NCBI GenBank assembly: GCA_039815145.1
Contig: JBCBZW010000001.1
Span: 62,001 to 126,000 of the forward strand
Source: Pseudomonadota bacterium
GTDB taxonomy: Bacteria; Pseudomonadota; Gammaproteobacteria; Steroidobacterales; JBCBZW01
Direction: 5' to 3'
Length of the DNA stretch: 64,000 nucleotides
Shown: positions 4,930-34,459 of the stretch, in pieces
Position numbering within the stretch: the stretch's first letter is position 1
Layout: each line of letters begins with the position of its first letter
Notes under the pieces: model-generated
Told to the model about the DNA's origin: nothing
The model's input: the letters and a program-made list of their open reading frames with translations, nothing else
The model's database searches: none
Position numbers and translations under genes: made by a program

Positions 4930-6859
<1,930 letters not shown>

Positions 6860-25006: not shown

Positions 25007-26935
25007 TCAGAACAAGATGTCACTCAGATCGTCATCGTCATCACCGGCGTCGACCGCTGCGTCCGTGCTTGGCGGCTCAACGGCCGCCTCATCGCCCAGC
25101 ATCAGAGCGAAGCCTTGGGTGATCCGCTCGCTCTCCATCGTGTAGTGCTTGTTGAAGTAGTCGGCCAGGGCCCGCACCAGGTTGGGCTGTAGCTGCGGGT
25201 CCAGCGTGTGCGCGTCTGCGCGAGCGGCCCAGGCTGCACTGGTGGCGGTCAGGCTGCGCACGGCGTGATGCAGGCTCGCGAACTCGCTGCGCGTGGCCGC
25301 GAATCCCGTGTAGATGTTCCGACAAAAGCCAAGCACCTCATCGCTGCGCTCACCGCGTTGCTCGAGCGCCACCATGAGTTCTGCAGAGCGCGCGCGCAAG
25401 TCGGTGTCGGAACTCACGACGGCATTCACCGCATCCTCTGCGGCATCTGGCGCTGAGGCGTCGTCGGCCAGCTCACTCTCTGGGTGAGGGGCTTGGGTTC
25501 CATGCGCCTGCTCGGCGGTGGCCACCGATGAGGCGGGCTGATCTTCCTGGGTGGTCTGCACGCACAGGGCCCGCAGCTCATCGGTCAACTTGCGCACCAG
25601 GCGAATGGCGGTTCCCGCCTCCGTGCTGTTGCTGCGCACCTGTTGCGCGATCTGCTCGATCGCGCGACCTTCCGCACCGAGCCGCGCTGCCAGTACCACC
25701 GCGTTGACCGCCAGCAGGAAGATCGCCTCCCCCACCTGCTCGAGATCGAGCAGATCCGCATCCATCTCGGTCAGCGCGGAGCGAAGGGAGCGGGTGATCG
25801 CCGAGCGGCCGCGGAACACCCGTCCCAGGGTGCCTACCTGGACAGCGTAGTTTCTGAGCGTGGAGTCCAGCGTGTGCTCGGCCGCTTGTCGGTCCGAGCC
25901 GCCGAGGGCCCGGCCCAAGTCCGTCCCCAGGGCATCGACCTGCTCCACCAGGCGATTCAAGGCGCTTTCGAGCTGCTGGTGCTCGGCCGCCAGGTCTCGC
26001 GCCAGGGCATGGGTCTGATCGTTGACGATGCTGACCAGCACCGTCTGGGCGACGGAGAGCTCAGGGCCCTCGAGCACACGGTCTGCATCGAAGCCGGGGA
26101 GCACGTGCTTCTCACGCAAGGACGCAAGCTGCTCCAAGGCGTGCTGGACGTGCTCCACCCGCTGCCGGAACGCATCCTGGAACTGCATAGACGACACCAG
26201 CTCAGTGGTGGCGGAGCTGATGGAGCGTTGGCGTTCCTGCAGCGTGCGAAACGCCCGCTCTTGCGTGCGCTCGTATGCCCCGATCCGCTCGGCGGACCGC
26301 TGCATGACCGACTCGGACTCGATCAGGGCATCGCGCAGGTGCTGCTCTCCCTCGAAGGCCTGGCGAATCGAGCCGCGCAGCTTCGAGGCCTGTCGCTTCA
26401 CCGTCACCAACAGGTTGCCGACCACCTGGCCGCCGCGATCCGCCTCGCTGCCGATGGCATCGGCGAACCAGTCGAGGTCGCGACTCTCCTCATCGAGCGA
26501 GCTGCCGTGGATCTGCGTAAGCACGCGCAACACCGGGAACATCTGGTAGCAGCGGTCAAGCGATTCGAGCTCGGCGCACATCGCCTCCGCCTTGCGCGCG
26601 ATGTTCTGCATGGCCGCCCACTCCGTCGACGACTCCTCGGCGCTCGGCTGCAGTGCCAGCGCATCCCCCGCGAGAGAGCTGATCTGCTCCTCCATCGAGT
26701 ACTCGATGGGCGTGAGTAAGCTCTCGACGAGCTGGCTCACGTGACGCAGGTCACGGGAGGTCTGCATCGTGCGCTTGCTGGCGCCAAGAAACGTCCTCTC
26801 GACGGCGGCGGAGACGTCCCCTAACGATTTGTTGACGCCGGCGAGGTCCTCGAGCGTCAAGGAAGGAGGCAGGGTCGATCCGACGGCCTCTACCGCGGAG
26901 TCGGTGACCGTCAATACGCTGGCGCTGCTGTGCAT
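25007..26935 (-). CDS. soluble helical chemotaxis-associated protein with CheZ-like motif and MCP-like segment
   Basis: I do not recognise this 642-residue protein as a named family. It has no signal peptide or membrane segment and is almost all helical with heptads. Three segments stand out. Residues 250-262 (MQFQDAFRQRVEH) contain F-Q-D-x3-Q, as in the CheZ active site FQDLTGQ, where the Asp and Gln act on CheY-P. Residues 399-444 (VGEAIFLLAVNAVVLAARL and EGRAIEQIAQQVR) resemble the hairpin tip of chemoreceptors but lack the usual Glu before AAR. The acidic C-terminus ends DDLSDILF, similar to the DDLLDSLGF tail with which CheZ binds CheY. It is divergent from a che operon that has no cheZ, cheC or cheX. 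Start chosen at the ATG at 26935; no strong ribosome site is visible. Confidence 0.7.
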   Translation of the reverse strand: MHSSASVLTVTDSAVEAVGSTLPPSLTLEDLAGVNKSLGDVSAAVERTFLGASKRTMQTSRDLRHVSQLVESLLTPIEYSMEEQISSLAGDALALQPSAEESSTEWAAMQNIARKAEAMCAELESLDRCYQMFPVLRVLTQIHGSSLDEESRDLDWFADAIGSEADRGGQVVGNLLVTVKRQASKLRGSIRQAFEGEQHLRDALIESESVMQRSAERIGAYERTQERAFRTLQERQRSISSATTELVSSMQFQDAFRQRVEHVQHALEQLASLREKHVLPGFDADRVLEGPELSVAQTVLVSIVNDQTHALARDLAAEHQQLESALNRLVEQVDALGTDLGRALGGSDRQAAEHTLDSTLRNYAVQVGTLGRVFRGRSAITRSLRSALTEMDADLLDLEQVGEAIFLLAVNAVVLAARLGAEGRAIEQIAQQVRSNSTEAGTAIRLVRKLTDELRALCVQTTQEDQPASSVATAEQAHGTQAPHPESELADDASAPDAAEDAVNAVVSSDTDLRARSAELMVALEQRGERSDEVLGFCRNIYTGFAATRSEFASLHHAVRSLTATSAAWAARADAHTLDPQLQPNLVRALADYFNKHYTMESERITQGFALMLGDEAAVEPPSTDAAVDAGDDDDDLSDILF

Positions 26936-27134: not shown

Positions 27135-27425
27135 ATGAAGCAACTGACAATCTCAGCCATGAGCACCGAATCGCCGCAGGCGCTAATGGCAAAAATCATG
27201 TCTGAGGGTTTGGACCTGGACCGCGTGGAGCAGATCGACTTCGCCGGCCTGCAGCTACTCATCGCCACCTACCTGGAAAGCCGCGATGACTTCGACCAAC
27301 GCGTGCGAGGACGCCTTCCGACTAATGTCATCGGGAGCCTCCTGGAAGAAGGCGGCGCTCAAGTTAACAGCAGCGCTAGCACGCAACCCGACCTCGCCCC
27401 ACTGTGGAGTCAAATCTGTGAGTAA
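27135..27425 (+). CDS. STAS-domain protein (anti-anti-sigma-like)
   Basis: The 96-residue protein looks like a single small STAS domain: strand KQLTISAM, then VEQIDFAGLQLLIATYLES, the usual STAS helix-1 block. In SpoIIAA-type proteins the residue after ID is a phosphorylated Ser or Thr; here it is Phe, so that switch is absent. STAS genes are found at the head of several che operons and may act in signalling or scaffolding. Its stop overlaps the cheY GTG by 8 bases, so it is the first gene of the operon. Confidence 0.7.
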   Translation: MKQLTISAMSTESPQALMAKIMSEGLDLDRVEQIDFAGLQLLIATYLESRDDFDQRVRGRLPTNVIGSLLEEGGAQVNSSASTQPDLAPLWSQICE

Positions 27426-27783
27426 ACGCATCTTGGCGGTGGACGACAGCGAATCCATCCGCGACATGGTCAAGCTAACGTTGGAGGATGCTGGCTACCA
27501 GGTAGTCACCGCTGTCGACGGCGCGGACGGCCTGGACAAGGCTGACGAAACCGTCGACATGGTGATCACCGACCTCAACATGCCCAACCTCGACGGCATC
27601 GGCCTGATCAAAGGCCTTCGCGCAAAGGCGGGCTTCGCGGGCCGCCCCATCGTAATGCTGACCACCGAAAGCCAAGACAGCCGTAAGGCGGAGGGCAAGG
27701 CGGCCGGCGCCACCGGCTGGATCGTCAAGCCCTTCAAGAACGAACAGCTGGTCGCGGTCGTCAGGAAGCTGGTCGGGTCATGA
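27418..27783 (+). CDS. cheY: CheY-type single-domain response regulator
   Basis: This 121-residue receiver domain has the acidic pair D9-D10 (AVDDSES), the phospho-acceptor D52 (ITDLNMPNLDG), T82 (MLTTE) and K104 (WIVKPFKNEQ). It should be phosphorylated by the CheA encoded next. I chose the GTG at 27418; the frame is open further upstream but that part duplicates STAS sequence in another phase. Its TGA overlaps the cheA ATG. Confidence 0.95.
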   Translation: MSKRILAVDDSESIRDMVKLTLEDAGYQVVTAVDGADGLDKADETVDMVITDLNMPNLDGIGLIKGLRAKAGFAGRPIVMLTTESQDSRKAEGKAAGATGWIVKPFKNEQLVAVVRKLVGS

Positions 27784-29819
27784 GCGACGCCAACAGACGC
27801 GACCCGAGCGATACCTATCGCGAGGAAGCCGCTGAGCTCTTGACGCGTCTGGAGACCGCCCTGCTTGCCATGCAGGACGGCAACGAAGATGCCGAGCTGA
27901 TCAATGAGGCCTTTCGTGCCCTGCACACGATCAAGGGTTCCGGCGGCATGTTCGGCTTCGATGACATCGTGGCCTTCGCCCATCGCTTCGAGACGGCCTT
28001 CGACACGGTGCGCACGGGGCAAGTCGCCCTGACGCCAGAGTTGATCGAAATCTCCCTCGAAGCCGGAGACCACATCGCGCACCTGCTGGACGGCAGCGCG
28101 CAACCGGCGGACGGCGATCCGATCGCGGCGCGCCTGGAAGCGGCTATGGGGCCTTCGGCAAGCGGCAGCGCCAGCAACGGCGAACAGGCCAGCGAGGCCG
28201 CCTCAGACGGTGGCAACGACGGCAGCGGCGAGATGCACAGCTACCGCATCGTCTTCTACCCGGAAGAGAACGCCTTCCGCTACGGCACCAACCCGCTACT
28301 GCTGCTCGAGGAGATGCGCGAACTCGGGACCATCAGCGCCTCAATGCTGTGCGACCGCGTACCGCCCCTGAGCTCCCTGGATCCCTCGGCCTGCCACCTG
28401 GGCTGGGAGATCAATCTTGAGAGCGATGCCGGGCGCGAGCGCATCGAGGACGTCTTCGTCTTCGTCGCTGACAACGCCACCCTCGAGATCACACAGCTCG
28501 ACGCCGAGACCCCGCAAGCGCCTGCCTCGCCTGAGCCGCAAGCCGCCAAACCACCTGAACAAGCAAAGCCCGCCCCCGGCGAAGGCCCGAACAGCGCCGC
28601 CAAGGCACCCGCTTCGGCAAGCGCTAGCAAGGGGTCGGAGAGCCTTCGCGTCTCCGCCGAGAAGCTCGACAGCCTGATGGATCAGGTGGGCGAGTTGGTG
28701 ATCGCCCAGTCGCGCCTCGCGGACATCTCGGACCGTTACTCGGATCCCGCTCTGCGCTCGGTGTCAGAGGATATCGATCGCCTCGTCACGAACCTTCGCG
28801 ACGACACCCTCGACATCCGCATGGTGCCCATCGGCCTGCTGTTCTCGAAGTTCCGGCGGATCACGCGCACCTTGAGCAAGGAGCTCGGCAAGAGCATCGC
28901 CTTCGAGGTGCTGGGTGAGGACACGGAGATCGACAAGTACTTCATCGAGCTGCTGAACGACCCCCTGGTGCACCTCATCCGCAACTCCATGGACCACGGT
29001 CTGGAGTCCCCGGAGGCGCGCGTCGCCGCGGGCAAGCCTGAGAAGGGGCGCCTGCAGCTGGCCGCCCGTCACGAGGGAGGCGAGGTGCACATCACGATCA
29101 CCGACGATGGCGCCGGCATCAACCTCGAGAAGGTGCGAGAACGGGCCATCGAGCGCGGCCTGCTCACGGAGGATCAGGAGGTGCCGGATACCACGCTGCA
29201 GATGATGATCTTCGAGCCGGGATTCTCCACCGCGACGGTGGTCTCCAACGTGTCCGGCCGTGGCGTCGGCATGGACGTGGTCCGGCGCACGATCCAGGAC
29301 CAGCGCGGCAGCATCTTCGTGGAGACCGAACAGGGCCGCGGCACCCGGATCACCCTGCGCCTGCCGCTCACCCTGGCCATCGTCGAGGGCTTCCACGTGA
29401 ACGTGAACGGCGGTGCCTTCGTACTGCCGCTGGACGCCATCGAGGAGTGTGTGGACATCAGCGCCAAGGAGGACCTGGCCAGCGAGAGCCGGCGCATGAT
29501 CACCATCCGCGATGAATACGTGCCCTTCGCACGCATGCACGAGCTGTTCGACTTCCCCTACACCCCGGGCCAGGACCGCCGTGTGGTGGTGGTACGCGTC
29601 GGCCGTGAGCGCCTCGGGCTGGTCGTCGACGAGATCATCGGCCAGCGCCAAACGGTGATTAAGCCGATGACACGCCTGCATCGCCACTGCCGAGGCATCG
29701 CCGGCGGCACGATCCTCGGCGACGGACGCGTTGCATTGATCGTCGATGTGGGCGCCCTGATCCCCATCGCCAAGACCGGCTCCACCGACCGCCGTAGCAA
29801 ACCGCGAGGTGCTGCATGA
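27780..29819 (+). CDS. cheA: chemotaxis histidine kinase CheA
   Basis: The 679-residue kinase has an HPt domain (about 10-110) with H49 in FRALHTIKGSGGMFGF, an intermediate domain (about 153-240, beginning YRIVFYPEENAFRYGTNP) instead of the classic CheY-binding P2, an Ala/Pro/Lys linker, the dimerisation domain (from about 287), the HATPase with N box LIRNSMDHGLESPE and G boxes DDGAGINLEK and SGRGVGMDVVR, and a C-terminal CheW-like domain (about 534-670). The conserved intermediate domain is seen in other non-enteric CheA proteins. ATGA overlaps join it to cheY and cheW. Confidence 0.96.
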   Translation: MSDANRRDPSDTYREEAAELLTRLETALLAMQDGNEDAELINEAFRALHTIKGSGGMFGFDDIVAFAHRFETAFDTVRTGQVALTPELIEISLEAGDHIAHLLDGSAQPADGDPIAARLEAAMGPSASGSASNGEQASEAASDGGNDGSGEMHSYRIVFYPEENAFRYGTNPLLLLEEMRELGTISASMLCDRVPPLSSLDPSACHLGWEINLESDAGRERIEDVFVFVADNATLEITQLDAETPQAPASPEPQAAKPPEQAKPAPGEGPNSAAKAPASASASKGSESLRVSAEKLDSLMDQVGELVIAQSRLADISDRYSDPALRSVSEDIDRLVTNLRDDTLDIRMVPIGLLFSKFRRITRTLSKELGKSIAFEVLGEDTEIDKYFIELLNDPLVHLIRNSMDHGLESPEARVAAGKPEKGRLQLAARHEGGEVHITITDDGAGINLEKVRERAIERGLLTEDQEVPDTTLQMMIFEPGFSTATVVSNVSGRGVGMDVVRRTIQDQRGSIFVETEQGRGTRITLRLPLTLAIVEGFHVNVNGGAFVLPLDAIEECVDISAKEDLASESRRMITIRDEYVPFARMHELFDFPYTPGQDRRVVVVRVGRERLGLVVDEIIGQRQTVIKPMTRLHRHCRGIAGGTILGDGRVALIVDVGALIPIAKTGSTDRRSKPRGAA

Positions 29820-30334
29820 GCACTGCTGCCCCCCAAACCTCCCCGCCAGCCGAAGGGACCGACGAGGAGGAGAGCCTCAGCACGCTGCTCACCTTCGAGC
29901 TGGGCGGTGAGTGCTTCGCGATGAACGTGATGCGCGTGCAGGAGATCCTCGACATCGTCTCCATGACACCCGTGCCGCACGCCGACAAGTTCGCGCCCGG
30001 CGTGATCAATGTGCGGGGCAACGTGGTGCCCGTGATCGACCTGCGCTACCGCTTTGGCATGCCCCCGCGAGATCAAGGCAAGAGCACCCGCACGGTGGTG
30101 TTCGAAGTGCTCGTTGAGGGCGAGACGACCCGCGTCGCGATGGCCGTCGACGCCGTGTACAACGTCGAGCCCGTGCAAGACCTGAAGATAGAGAAGCTGC
30201 CGGAAGCCGGCAGCAAATGGAACGGCAAGCTGATCACGGGTATCGCTCGGATCCGCGAGCGACTGACGATTATCTTGAACCTCGAAAACGTCTTCGACAC
30301 CAGTATCGAATCCACCAAGCCGCTGAGCGCCTAG
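29816..30334 (+). CDS. cheW: CheW coupling protein
   Basis: CheW bridges chemoreceptors and CheA. The 172-residue protein is a single CheW domain: LLTFELGGECFAMNVMRVQEILD, then PGVINVRGNVVPVIDLRYRFG and a C-terminal ITGIARIRERLTIILNLENVF. A polar 20-residue N-terminal extension precedes the domain. It overlaps the cheA stop by ATGA and is 9 bases before the mcp gene. Confidence 0.95.
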   Translation: MSTAAPQTSPPAEGTDEEESLSTLLTFELGGECFAMNVMRVQEILDIVSMTPVPHADKFAPGVINVRGNVVPVIDLRYRFGMPPRDQGKSTRTVVFEVLVEGETTRVAMAVDAVYNVEPVQDLKIEKLPEAGSKWNGKLITGIARIRERLTIILNLENVFDTSIESTKPLSA

Positions 30335-30343
30335 GAGATCAGC

Positions 30344-32410
30344 ATGCGACTTACCATCAAACTCAAGCTCATAGGTGCGTTCACGCTGCTCCTCGCCTTC
30401 GCCGGCGGCCTGGGCTACATCGGCATCGACAAGCTCGGCGGCATGAACGCACGACTGAAGTCCCTCGCCACCGAGTCCGTGATGCGGGTGACTGCCGCCC
30501 AGGACATCCAGCGCCTCGCGTTGGAGATCGCTCGCTCCGAGAAGAACATCGTGCTCGCGGAAGATCCGGTGGTCGTGGAGCGCTACCAGGGCGTCATCGA
30601 TAGCAACCGACAGCAGATCGATCAGAAGCTCACCACCCTGAAGGAGCTCATCGGTGATGGCGATAGCGCCGACATCGCCGAGTTCGAGGCCGCCTGGGCC
30701 GGCTACGTCGAGAACAACGCGCAGGTTATCCAACTCGCAATGCTCAACTCCAACGCGCGCGCCCGTGAGCTGTCGTCGAACGAAGCGCGGGAGGCGATTG
30801 CTCAGGCCGAAAAGGCCGTCGCCATGCTGGTGGACCGCGCTGCGCAGATGCCGGCGATCGCCGACCAGGCCCTGCTCACCATCGCACGCCTGAAGGAGGA
30901 CATGGTGCAGTCCGTGCGGGCCGAGAAGAACCACATCATCGCCAGTGATGATGAGGAGATGAGCAAGCACTTTGCCAGCGGTCAGGCGCGTCACGCCTCC
31001 GCCGATGAGAAGATCGAGGAGTTGCGCACCCTGTTCGCCGGTGCAGGCGGGCAGGCGATAACGCAGCTCGCCGACGGCTGGGCGGGCTACAAGCGCTACT
31101 CCACCGCCGCCATGAAGATGTCCGCCGAGAACGGCAACCGCCGCGCCTTCGAGCGCTCCGCGGGCGCCGGCGACGAGTCCCTGTCCCGCACCCGAGAGGC
31201 CCTGCGCAACCTGGTCACCAGCAACCTGGCAGCCATGGAGCGGGACACGCAGATCAGCGACCAGAGCTACAAGTCAGCTCGCAACATGCTACTGCAGATG
31301 CTGGTAGCCGTGCTCGTGGTGGGCTTCGCAGCGGCGCTCTGGATCTCCAGCACGATCACGACGGCACTGAACAAAGCCGTTCGCATGGCGCAGGCCGTGG
31401 CCAAGGGCGACCTCACCGTGTCAGAGACGGCGAACAACAACGATGAGTTCAAGGACCTTCTCGACGCCAATGTGGCGATGTTGACGCGCCTGCGAGACGT
31501 GGTGAGCAACGCCGCGCACACGGCTAACCAGGTCGCCCACGGCAGCAGCCAACTCGCCTCATCTGCGGAACAGCTTTCCCGAGGTGCCACTGAGCAATCC
31601 TCGGCCACCCAGGAAGCCTCATCGGCGGTCGAGGAGATGGCGGCCAACATCCGCCACGCGGCGGACAACGCCTCCACCACCGAGACCATCGCCGACAACG
31701 CCTCGGGCGACACGCGCTCGAGCGGTGAAGTGGTCAACAAGGCCTTGGCTTCCATCGAGACCATCGCCGAGAAGATCAACATCGTGCAGGAGATCGCCCG
31801 CCAGACGGACCTCCTCGCCCTCAACGCCGCCGTGGAGGCGGCCCGCGCCGGTCAGCACGGCAAGGGCTTCGCGGTGGTGGCCGCCGAGGTCCGGAAACTC
31901 GCCGAGCGCAGCCAGCAGGCCGCCGCGGAGATCAATGAACTCAGCAGCGAGACCCTCGGTTTGTCCAAGGAAGCGGGTGCGAAGCTCGAGGCGCTCGTGC
32001 CCAACATCGAACGCACGGCCGAACTCGTACGCGAGATCTCGGCCGCGAGTCGCGAGCAGAACATCGGCGCCGAGCAGATCAACGAAGCGATGCGCCAGAT
32101 GGACGGCGTCGTGCAGCAGAACGCGAGCGCCTCGGAGGAGGTCTCGAGCGTGTCCGACGCCCTGGCCGGACAGGCCTCTGAGCTGCAGTCGCTCCTCGCC
32201 TTCTTCAAGCTCGATGAGCGCGGCAGGCAGCTCGCCTCGGCAGGCAGCGTCGCCTCCGCGCCCGCTCCGGTTCGCGCCCCGGTCGCGCCTGCCAGCCGGC
32301 GTGCTGCACCAGCCGCACCCACCGGCCAGGATGACGGCTTTGCCATCGACCTACTGAGCGGCGAAGAGGTGGACGACGCCCACTTCGAGCCCTATCGCGA
32401 CGCCGGCTGA
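30344..32410 (+). CDS. methyl-accepting chemotaxis protein, transmembrane
   Basis: The 688-residue receptor has membrane segments at about 9-29 and 315-338, a helical periplasmic sensor of about 285 residues, HAMP (about 339-390) and a signalling domain with the tip [21 protein letters not shown] at about 480-500. The sensor is longer than a plain four-helix bundle and repeats an R-x-EKN-x-I motif ([10 protein letters not shown] near 66 and [11 protein letters not shown] near 194), which suggests a tandem or helical-bimodular fold. The ligand is unknown. The C-terminal tail ends EPYRDAG; no NWETF-type CheR docking pentapeptide is present. Confidence 0.93.
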
Positions 32411-32498: not shown

Positions 32499-33362
32499 GT
32501 GCAACAAGCGAACACCGCAAGCGCCTTCGCCGCCGGCCCCGTGGCGATGCTCGCACGCTACATCTTCGATCATTGGGGCCTGGTCATCGACGAGCGTCAC
32601 CGCTCGATGCTGCAAACCCGCCTGCAGCGTCGCATGCGCGAACTCGGCAAGGGCTCGCTGGAAGCCTACTGCGAGTACCTCTTCAAGCAAGGAGGCATCA
32701 GCAGGGAACATGACCTGATCTGCGAAGCGGTGACCACGCAGACCACCAGCTTCATGCGGGAAGCGCACCACTTCGAGTACCTCACGCAGGTCTACCTTCC
32801 CCAGACCCTCGGCACCCAGCGGCGCGGGGGACGACTCCTGCGCGTGTGGAGCGCGGCCGCCTCCATCGGCCAGGAGGCTTACACGCTGGCGGTGGTCCTT
32901 GCCGAGTACCAGCGCCTGCAGCAGGGACCTGCCTTCGAGATCCTGGCCACGGACATCAATGCCCAGGCCCTGGGCCAGGTGCAAAACGCCATCTACCCGG
33001 CGAAGGACGTGGAAACCCTCGATCCGGCATTGAGGGAGCGGTACTTCCTGCGCGGGCGCGGCAAGCTCACCGACTACGTGCGGGTCGCACCGGAACTGCG
33101 CCGCCGCGTGACCCCTCGCCAGCTCAATCTGGTGGAGACACCCTATTCAGTGGCGACGGGCTTCGACGTTATCCTGATTCGAAACTGTCTCATCTACTTC
33201 GATAGCCCAACCAGGCTCAAGGTGGTTCGTGCCTTGCGCGATCGCCTCGCCCCGGGCGGACTGCTCATCACCGGACATTCGGAGCACTTCCCAGCGAAGG
33301 ACCTCGACATGGAAGCGGTCGGTCCTTCGCTCTATCAGCGTCGTATCGGAGGTGCTCGATGA
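32499..33362 (+). CDS. cheR: chemoreceptor glutamate methyltransferase CheR
   Basis: CheR methylates receptor glutamates with SAM. The 287-residue protein has the N-terminal helical domain (GLVIDERHRSMLQTRLQRRM) and the SAM fold with LRVWSAAASIGQEAYTLA, EILATDINAQAL and FDVILIRNCLIYF. The start is the GTG at 32499; an ATG at 32547 is possible. Its stop overlaps the cheB ATG. CheR's SAM-site motif usually reads WSAGCSTGEEPYS; here it is WSAAASIGQEAYT, a mild variant. Confidence 0.94.
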   Translation: MQQANTASAFAAGPVAMLARYIFDHWGLVIDERHRSMLQTRLQRRMRELGKGSLEAYCEYLFKQGGISREHDLICEAVTTQTTSFMREAHHFEYLTQVYLPQTLGTQRRGGRLLRVWSAAASIGQEAYTLAVVLAEYQRLQQGPAFEILATDINAQALGQVQNAIYPAKDVETLDPALRERYFLRGRGKLTDYVRVAPELRRRVTPRQLNLVETPYSVATGFDVILIRNCLIYFDSPTRLKVVRALRDRLAPGGLLITGHSEHFPAKDLDMEAVGPSLYQRRIGGAR

Positions 33363-34459
33363 GCATCGAGGTCCTGATCGTCGATGACTCCGCCACCGTG
33401 CGCGAGGCCCTTCGCGAGATGATCGACAGCCAGCCCGACATGCACGTGATGGGCACGGCTCACGACCCGTTCAAGGCGGTCGACGTGATCAAGCAACGGG
33501 TGCCGGACGTGATCGTGCTCGACATCGAGATGCCACGCATGGACGGCCTCTCGTTTCTGCGCCGGATCATGTCCCAACGCCCCATCCCGGTGATCATCTG
33601 CTCTACCCTGATCAACGGCAACAACGCCACCTGCGTCGAGGCCCTGCGGGCGGGCGCAGTGGACGTGATGAGCAAGCCCAAACTCAGTTCGCCGGCAGCG
33701 ATCGAAGAGGGCAGGATTCTCATCACCGACAAGGTGCGCGCAGCCGCCAGCGTGCGACTGTCCCCCGTGAGCAAAGCCCCCGTGCGCCAAACGCCGCTGG
33801 CCGAACGCCAGGAAAGGCATACGGCAGATGTCGTACTGCCCGCCAAGCGCCTAGCACCTTCGCTCGGTAAGCGGAGAAAGCCCCTGGTTGCCATCGGCGC
33901 CTCCACCGGCGGCACGCAGGCTCTCGAGACGGTCTTCAAGGAACTCGACGACACGGTCCATGGGATCGTGGTCGTGCAACACATGCCCGAGCACTTTACG
34001 GCTGCCTTCGCACGGCGCTTGAACGGGGTATCCAAGCTCGAGGTGCGCGAAGCGTGCAACGGCGATGAGGTGGAAGCTGGCGTGGCGCTCATCGCCCCGG
34101 GTGGCCATCACCTGATCGTGCGTCCGCGGGGGGATGGCTACACGTGTCAGGTGGTAGACGGCCCCCTGGTGGCGCGCCATCGCCCCTCGGTGGACGTCCT
34201 GTTTCGCTCCGTCGCCCAGACCGCCGGCGACGCGGCCCTCGGCATCATCATGACGGGCATGGGCGACGACGGGGCCCGCGGCCTCGCCGAGCTGCGCAGC
34301 GCCGGCGCCCTGACGGTGGGCCAGAGTGAGCGATCATGCGTGGTCTACGGCATGCCAGCGGAAGCCGCGAAGCTCGGCGCCGTCGCTAAGGAGACAGACC
34401 TCAGGGGTATCGCCAGTATCGTCCAGTCCTTTGGTCGCACGGCGGCGGTTCGCCATTGA
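33359..34459 (+). CDS. cheB: chemotaxis response regulator methylesterase CheB
   Basis: CheB removes methyl groups (and deamidates Gln) on receptors when its receiver domain is phosphorylated. The 366-residue protein has an N-terminal receiver with D55 (IVLDIEMPRMDG) and a C-terminal esterase with the catalytic Ser182 (IGASTGGTQAL), His in VVQHMPEHFT and Asp in MTGMGDDGARG. No cheD gene is present in the cluster, so receptor deamidation probably depends on CheB. It ends the operon. Confidence 0.96.
   Translation: MSIEVLIVDDSATVREALREMIDSQPDMHVMGTAHDPFKAVDVIKQRVPDVIVLDIEMPRMDGLSFLRRIMSQRPIPVIICSTLINGNNATCVEALRAGAVDVMSKPKLSSPAAIEEGRILITDKVRAAASVRLSPVSKAPVRQTPLAERQERHTADVVLPAKRLAPSLGKRRKPLVAIGASTGGTQALETVFKELDDTVHGIVVVQHMPEHFTAAFARRLNGVSKLEVREACNGDEVEAGVALIAPGGHHLIVRPRGDGYTCQVVDGPLVARHRPSVDVLFRSVAQTAGDAALGIIMTGMGDDGARGLAELRSAGALTVGQSERSCVVYGMPAEAAKLGAVAKETDLRGIASIVQSFGRTAAVRH

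Follow-up and report, generated by a model that had tools for sequence, protein, structure and literature searches.

A proposed CheZ-like CheY-P phosphatase on a degenerate chemoreceptor scaffold, encoded beside a che operon without cheZ

Many che systems apparently have no CheY-P phosphatase, and phosphate sinks have been invoked for some of them (PMC8429497, PMC10579534). In CheZ, an AxxF(Y)Q motif adjoins the active site (PMC7750401). The McpA-like receptors of F7 clusters (PA0180, VCA1088) have a highly conserved C-terminus, of which the role is considered important yet unclear; this tail has no CheR pentapeptide (Val occupies the second position) and shows no interaction with CheR, and the receptor is dispensable for array formation (PMC7184735). 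F7 clusters of stages 1-2 possess cheY and no cheZ, cheZ being present only in F6 clusters, and when mcpA was lost at stage 3 the F6 cheY/cheZ pair was kept and later recruited (PMC7184735). McpA-like receptors have been reported to join F6 arrays (PMC9855816, PMC7184735), and the McpA of S. oneidensis is located with the F6 array (PMC9855816). The tail of Mlp44 (VCA1088) reads E-W/V-E-x-F and has been suggested as a CheR site (PMC11940527). VC1394 of the F9 system has the same topology as the McpA-like receptors (PMC7534058). The open-access literature yielded no mention of a CheZ-like motif for McpA-like receptors.

The gene studied here, P0001, lies in a stretch of 64,000 nucleotides that was analysed as a whole (the window). 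The features of the locus are collected in Table 1. As the preliminary description had stated, P0001 is divergent from a run of STAS-like, cheY, cheA, cheW, mcp, cheR and cheB genes, and no cheZ, cheC or cheX is present in this cluster; this was confirmed, with the reservation that the STAS_2 match stays below its cut-off. CheZ, CheC and CheX were also absent from the whole assembly (99.5% complete), which contains FliM and three CheA genes. A phosphatase of the CheC/CheX type was thus ruled out for this genome. The STAS-like gene is very divergent, and its 3′ end runs, in a different frame, into the beginning of cheY; a frameshifted STAS gene was ruled out, because a congener keeps the same frame.

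Table 1. Features of the P0001 locus and of the second che cluster of the same genome
Feature	Position	Strand	Evidence or remark
P0001	25007..26935	minus	642 aa soluble helical protein of the ~600-aa che-associated family; proposed CheY-P phosphatase (activity untested)
FQDAFRQ, residues 252-258	26162..26182	minus	D254 and Q258 are the proposed catalytic pair
Degenerate MCP signalling hairpin tip, residues 399-458	25562..25741	minus	PF00015 E 0.012, below cut-off
YTMESER, residues 598-604, second invariant family signature	25124..25144	minus	Y, T, M, E and R invariant in alignments A2 and A3
DDLSDILF C-terminal tail, residues 635-642, proposed CheY-docking peptide (no binding data)	25010..25033	minus	Predicted short helix; LF/FF ends family-wide
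STAS-like gene, first of divergent operon	27135..27425	+	PF13466 STAS_2 partial match, E 0.0097, below cut-off
CheY, receiver only, D52; proposed substrate (inferred)	27418..27783	+	PF00072 E 6e-25
CheA	27780..29819	+	Hpt, H-kinase_dim, HATPase_c and CheW domains
CheW	29816..30334	+	PF01584 E 2e-33
Membrane MCP, 4HB sensor, HAMP and signalling domain	30344..32410	+	Domain matches
CheR	32499..33362	+	PF01739 E 3e-48
CheB	33359..34459	+	PF01339 E 1e-60
Compact 173-aa family member, own genome, contig C35	L141 4425-4943	minus	LQFADNQAQRLEHL and tail SSIELF; order cheR-cheB-[compact member]-cheA-cheY-cheW

Both sequence features on which the preliminary description rested, FQD-x3-Q and the DDLSDILF end, are present in the translation, the C-terminus reading ...DDDDDLSDILF. 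The profile search that it had proposed did not identify P0001 as CheZ: PF04344 (Pfam) gave no match, and the NCBIfam model Phos_CheZ (NF041271) covered the motif (residues 227-270) at E 0.014 and 14.9 bits, far below the cut-off of 350. Apart from this, searching Pfam, NCBIfam and the PDB with the P0001 sequence on its own gave only weak MCP and coiled-coil matches. The cut-off of the MCP signalling domain PF00015 was not reached (15.9 bits versus 34.6), the hairpin tip reads LLAVNAVVLAARLGAEGRAIEQIAQQVR and has lost the MCP tip consensus, and no sensor domain or HAMP match was obtained. MCP cytoplasmic domains were, on the other hand, found by the family profile A2 described below at E 1e-15. 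The structure of P0001 was predicted with AlphaFold2 from 20 sequences; the model is all helical (pLDDT 66, pTM 0.44), with a helix break at residue 251, a new helix from 252 at the motif, and a low-confidence stretch at 613-642 containing a short terminal helix (636-641). The model of a homologue from R. johnstonii (pLDDT 79.5) breaks at the same place and has a terminal helix at 571-579. Foldseek and VIA-align searches with these two modest-confidence models were non-discriminating, with generic helical bundles and MCP cytoplasmic domains among the matches listed; CheZ did not figure among those listed, and nothing can be concluded from this.

Within a single protein the motif is weak evidence, and it is conservation that decides. 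FQD-x3-Q arose in 105 of 20,000 shuffles of P0001 (0.5%). The bare D-x3-Q arose in 19,028 of 20,000 and occurs four times in P0001 itself, so that it carries no information. The D and Q of the motif were invariant in 13/13, 20/20 and 114/114 related sequences, and because D, Q and the terminal Phe persist in homologues of 15-25% identity, the motif exceeds chance. The preliminary description had regarded FQD as the CheZ-type pattern and had held that homologues lacking both motifs would refute it. The comparison upheld the D-x3-Q and the hydrophobic C-terminal end, both of which are kept, but not the Phe, which is replaced in relatives carrying QxGD or QYDD; the invariant string is Q-x2-D-x3-Q-R. 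The family was gathered partly by the motif, which inflates the conservation of D and Q but not the tail count.

P0001 has a homologue of 78% identity within its genus and divergent ones in other Proteobacteria. Its own branch consists of collinear soluble proteins of about 580-670 aa, found in alphaproteobacterial and some other genomes and adjoining che genes. Their layout is a helical N-terminus, Q-x-[GQD]-D-x-x-[RSA]-Q-R, a degenerate MCP hairpin, YTMxxER, an acidic linker, and an end such as ..DDIELF or ..ADALF. This che-associated D-x3-Q family is uncurated and was defined here by alignment A2, with 13 members at 15-44% identity to the first row (one 74% pair excepted). Only 13 columns of A2 are invariant, including the D and Q of the motif, Y-T-M and E-R, and the C-terminal Phe is more than 90% conserved. 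A phmmer search linked P0001 to one ~600-aa relative at E 3e-7 (residues 36-453), and P0001 meets the family traits: Q-x2-D-x3-Q-R, YTMxxER, a terminal Phe, the collinear layout and the che neighbourhood. A scan of named genomes yielded 387 relatives, of which 80 were kept, including one from Rhizobium johnstonii 3841; that all 80 belong to Rhizobiaceae or Hyphomicrobiales is due to the query used. The gene was divergent from cheY-cheA-cheW-mcp in 10/10 of the Rhizobiaceae loci examined, as in the window, and a STAS-like ORF lay between the gene and cheY in those checked for it.

Homology matches to P0001 extended across the class to MCP-like proteins with [LM]QF[QEG]D-x3-Q and ends such as EVTFF, IELF and GEVELF. 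A profile of the motif segment (A1; 63 positions, 19 sequences, no CheZ among them) had hits in 104 of 274 genomes in the class and in 147 of 398 in the phylum. D, Q and the Q three residues before D were present in all 114 non-redundant family ORFs, and the Phe in 82% of them, although it was fixed in the seed. The C-terminal tail lay outside the profile with which these ORFs were collected. An LF or FF end was nevertheless observed in 107 of the 114, versus 1 of 66 other MCP ORFs (Fisher p 1e-39) and 35 of 4,753 other ORFs. The lone LF-ending MCP, an McpA-like protein from Vibrio, carries LQFTDIIVQQ and EEGEVELF and is itself part of the family. Among 78 fetched loci with a family gene, 55 had at least two core che genes within 9 kb; cheA lay within 9 kb in 41 and cheY within 800 bp in 40. 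Two architectures recurred: MCP-like proteins of about 330-680 aa, placed as FQD-cheY-cheA-cheW-mcp-cheR-cheB or 3′ of cheB, and compact proteins of 152-231 aa. The same module was seen in McpA-like/VC1394-like receptors of F7/F9-type clusters and in compact proteins of 150-230 aa. The compact members lack an MCP domain but retain D-x3-Q and, in most cases, the tail, and many are encoded next to cheY; none of the compact and ~600-aa proteins tested exceeded a cut-off of the curated families.

Module and tail were also seen in McpA-like/VC1394-like proteins of a large Vibrio replicon, of an Aeromonas plasmid and of many other genomes. The 98-kb Aeromonas plasmid record (L143, 9959-21170) carries a whole che cluster with a VC1394-like family member, annotated as methyl-accepting chemotaxis protein, as its first gene. 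A tblastn search of plasmids with P0001 and one compact protein gave no matches. In one che region (G248:C16, 139079-148456) a divergent CheZ is encoded about 9 kb from an McpA-like family member, so the presence of one does not preclude the other. In the genome of P0001, a second che cluster on contig C35 contains a compact member, LQFADNQAQRLEHL ... GESSIELF, which probably serves as that system's phosphatase; both che clusters, leaving aside the one with a 1,924-aa CheA, thus have a family member.

Some further proteins were recorded in passing. A 722-aa protein in the che cluster of another genome (L206, 3746-5911) has QFQDITRQRLEHA and an IQLF end. Proteins of 190-231 aa with the module and DDIELF tails are encoded away from che operons (L176-L179, near 5100-5300). 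Between cheY and an mcp, two loci (L184, 5141-8875, minus strand; L185) encode proteins of about 1,240 aa that have LQNIDRVMQRL-like segments and, near the C-terminus, a YVMEEER motif, without an LF tail; the one tested gave no match in Pfam.

The sequence link to CheZ was observed at the level of the wider family. The weaker matches of A1 included true cheZ genes (E 3e-6 to 2e-4 per genome), with coordinates in agreement with an independent PF04344 search. In hhalign, A1 aligned with CheZ at P 9e-6, FQD on FQD; with the motif masked the register was unchanged (P 0.016). The masked-motif scores were 17.0-17.6 versus at best 15.7 for windows of ordinary MCPs, but one motif-free window of the family itself scored 17.4, so the masked scores barely match or exceed the controls. 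A profile built without the P0001 group found P0001 at E 2e-6, together with most of its ~600-aa relatives; it also found all 32 CheZ proteins among about 5,000 ORFs, weakly (best E 0.0018). Alone, P0001 and its congener aligned with CheZ only at P 0.16, and the ~600-aa family at P 0.03, in register, which is no better than the score of some other windows of the family. CheZ-profile scores separated the family from ordinary MCPs weakly overall (p 0.026), and a PDB search with the short A1 profile gave spurious matches to a repeat protein. As far as the profile alignment of the wider family can place them, D254 and Q258 are in register with the CheZ pair; for P0001 alone this is weak.

The comparison with CheZ shows both likeness and difference. 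P0001 shares with it a D-x3-Q in register in a predicted amphipathic helix, an apparently disordered linker, an acidic Phe-ending C-terminal peptide and the coupling to cheY. In contrast to CheZ, it is three times longer, is built on an MCP-derived scaffold, falls below the family cut-off, has Q rather than D at -3, and ends, like its relatives, in LF or FF rather than LGF. AxxF(Y)Q is not kept, P0001 having S-M-Q-F-Q and the position being variable among relatives. By eye, the SQ-x2-[MV]-D-like spacing of McpA-type tails such as NPVSQESMDEGDVDLF recurs in CheZ tails, for example VSGQDEVDDLLSSLGF, and the CheY-binding N-terminus of FliM (LSQAEIDALL) has a similar SQ spacing. With PF00015, P0001 has in common the degenerate hairpin of its C-terminal half. 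The phosphatases CheC, CheX and FliY have the role predicted for P0001, with an unrelated fold and motif. The McpA-like F7 receptors (PA0180/CttP, VCA1088/Mlp44, SO_2117) and VC1394 of F9 have the same D-x3-Q module and hydrophobic-acidic tail and, like P0001, stand beside cheY in clusters that have no cheZ of their own; for PA0180 and VC1394 themselves, membership and presence of the motif are inferred, not taken from their sequences. In these receptors the MCP tip is intact, a membrane anchor is mostly present and the module follows the tip, whereas in P0001 it precedes a degenerate tip.

These results lead us to propose, with a probability of about 0.7, that P0001 is a CheZ-type CheY-P phosphatase with a soluble scaffold that goes back to the degenerate signalling domain of a chemoreceptor; the activity is inferred. 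By the PF04344 cut-off it falls outside that family, yet its mode of action is most likely that of CheZ. The acidic linker and the hydrophobic tail DDLSDILF would tether CheY, as the CheZ tail does, and D254 and Q258, four residues apart on one helix face, would enter the CheY active site at D52 and position a water for attack, so that CheY-P would be dephosphorylated. P0001 would in this way end the signal of the STAS-cheY-cheA-cheW-mcp-cheR-cheB system, which is otherwise without a known phosphatase. That P0001 binds CheY-P, that it is catalytic and which CheY is its substrate are inferences only. Because the module sits on an MCP-derived scaffold, its action may be tied to the receptor array, which is speculation.

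The preliminary description had left open whether this large soluble protein is a CheZ-like phosphatase or a CheY-P-binding adaptor, and the family-level evidence supports that pair of readings at the sequence level, without showing activity. An adaptor would bind CheY-P by tail and helix and sequester or localise CheY without dephosphorylation. The conserved tail and che neighbourhood, the MCP-derived scaffold and the reported presence of McpA-like receptors in F6 arrays all suit it. We nevertheless hold it unlikely, as a pure adaptor would have no need for a D and a Q that never vary, stand four residues apart and align with the CheZ catalytic pair. A degenerate chemoreceptor or array scaffold, in which the invariant Q, D and Q serve as packing residues at a kinked helix and CheR, CheB or CheW docks on the tail, appears quite improbable. 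It could draw on the MCP-like hairpin, on a predicted helix break exactly at the motif and on the CheR site suggested for the Mlp44 tail, but compact members keep D-x3-Q and mostly the tail without any MCP domain, many of them beside cheY, and the McpA tail neither contains the pentapeptide nor interacts with CheR. The tail as a CheR pentapeptide was ruled out, since its second position misfits.

It was also cautioned in the preliminary description that FQD-like motifs occur in other MCP-like helical proteins and that chance is possible. The occurrence is real, but the proteins concerned have the tail and the che setting in common and belong to a single family. A coiled-coil FQD-x3-Q standing alone, together with an acidic tail unrelated to it, could be argued from the shuffles, but it cannot easily account for a D and Q invariant at 15-25% identity and associated with the tail, and this already disfavoured reading is in our judgement very improbable.

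The phosphatase proposed for P0001 may belong to something larger. Whether an unrecognised, widespread branch of the CheZ superfamily, comprising the McpA-like/VC1394-like receptors, the ~600-aa soluble proteins and the compact proteins of 150-230 aa, provides a CheY-P phosphatase for those proteobacterial che systems in which none is thought to exist is, in our estimate, an even question. Most family members are filed as ordinary chemoreceptors or match no named family, and a phosphatase role would change the reading of a set of MCP-annotated proteins. The CheZ-like reading may explain the conserved tail of McpA/CttP and VCA1088. For McpA-like receptors, such a function would fit the absence of cheZ from F7, the conserved C-terminus, the dispensability for arrays and the retention of the F6 cheY/cheZ pair after the loss of mcpA (PMC7184735). 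If it is true, many annotated chemoreceptors, McpA/CttP of P. aeruginosa and VCA1088 of V. cholerae among them, would be signal terminators, instead of or besides being receptors.
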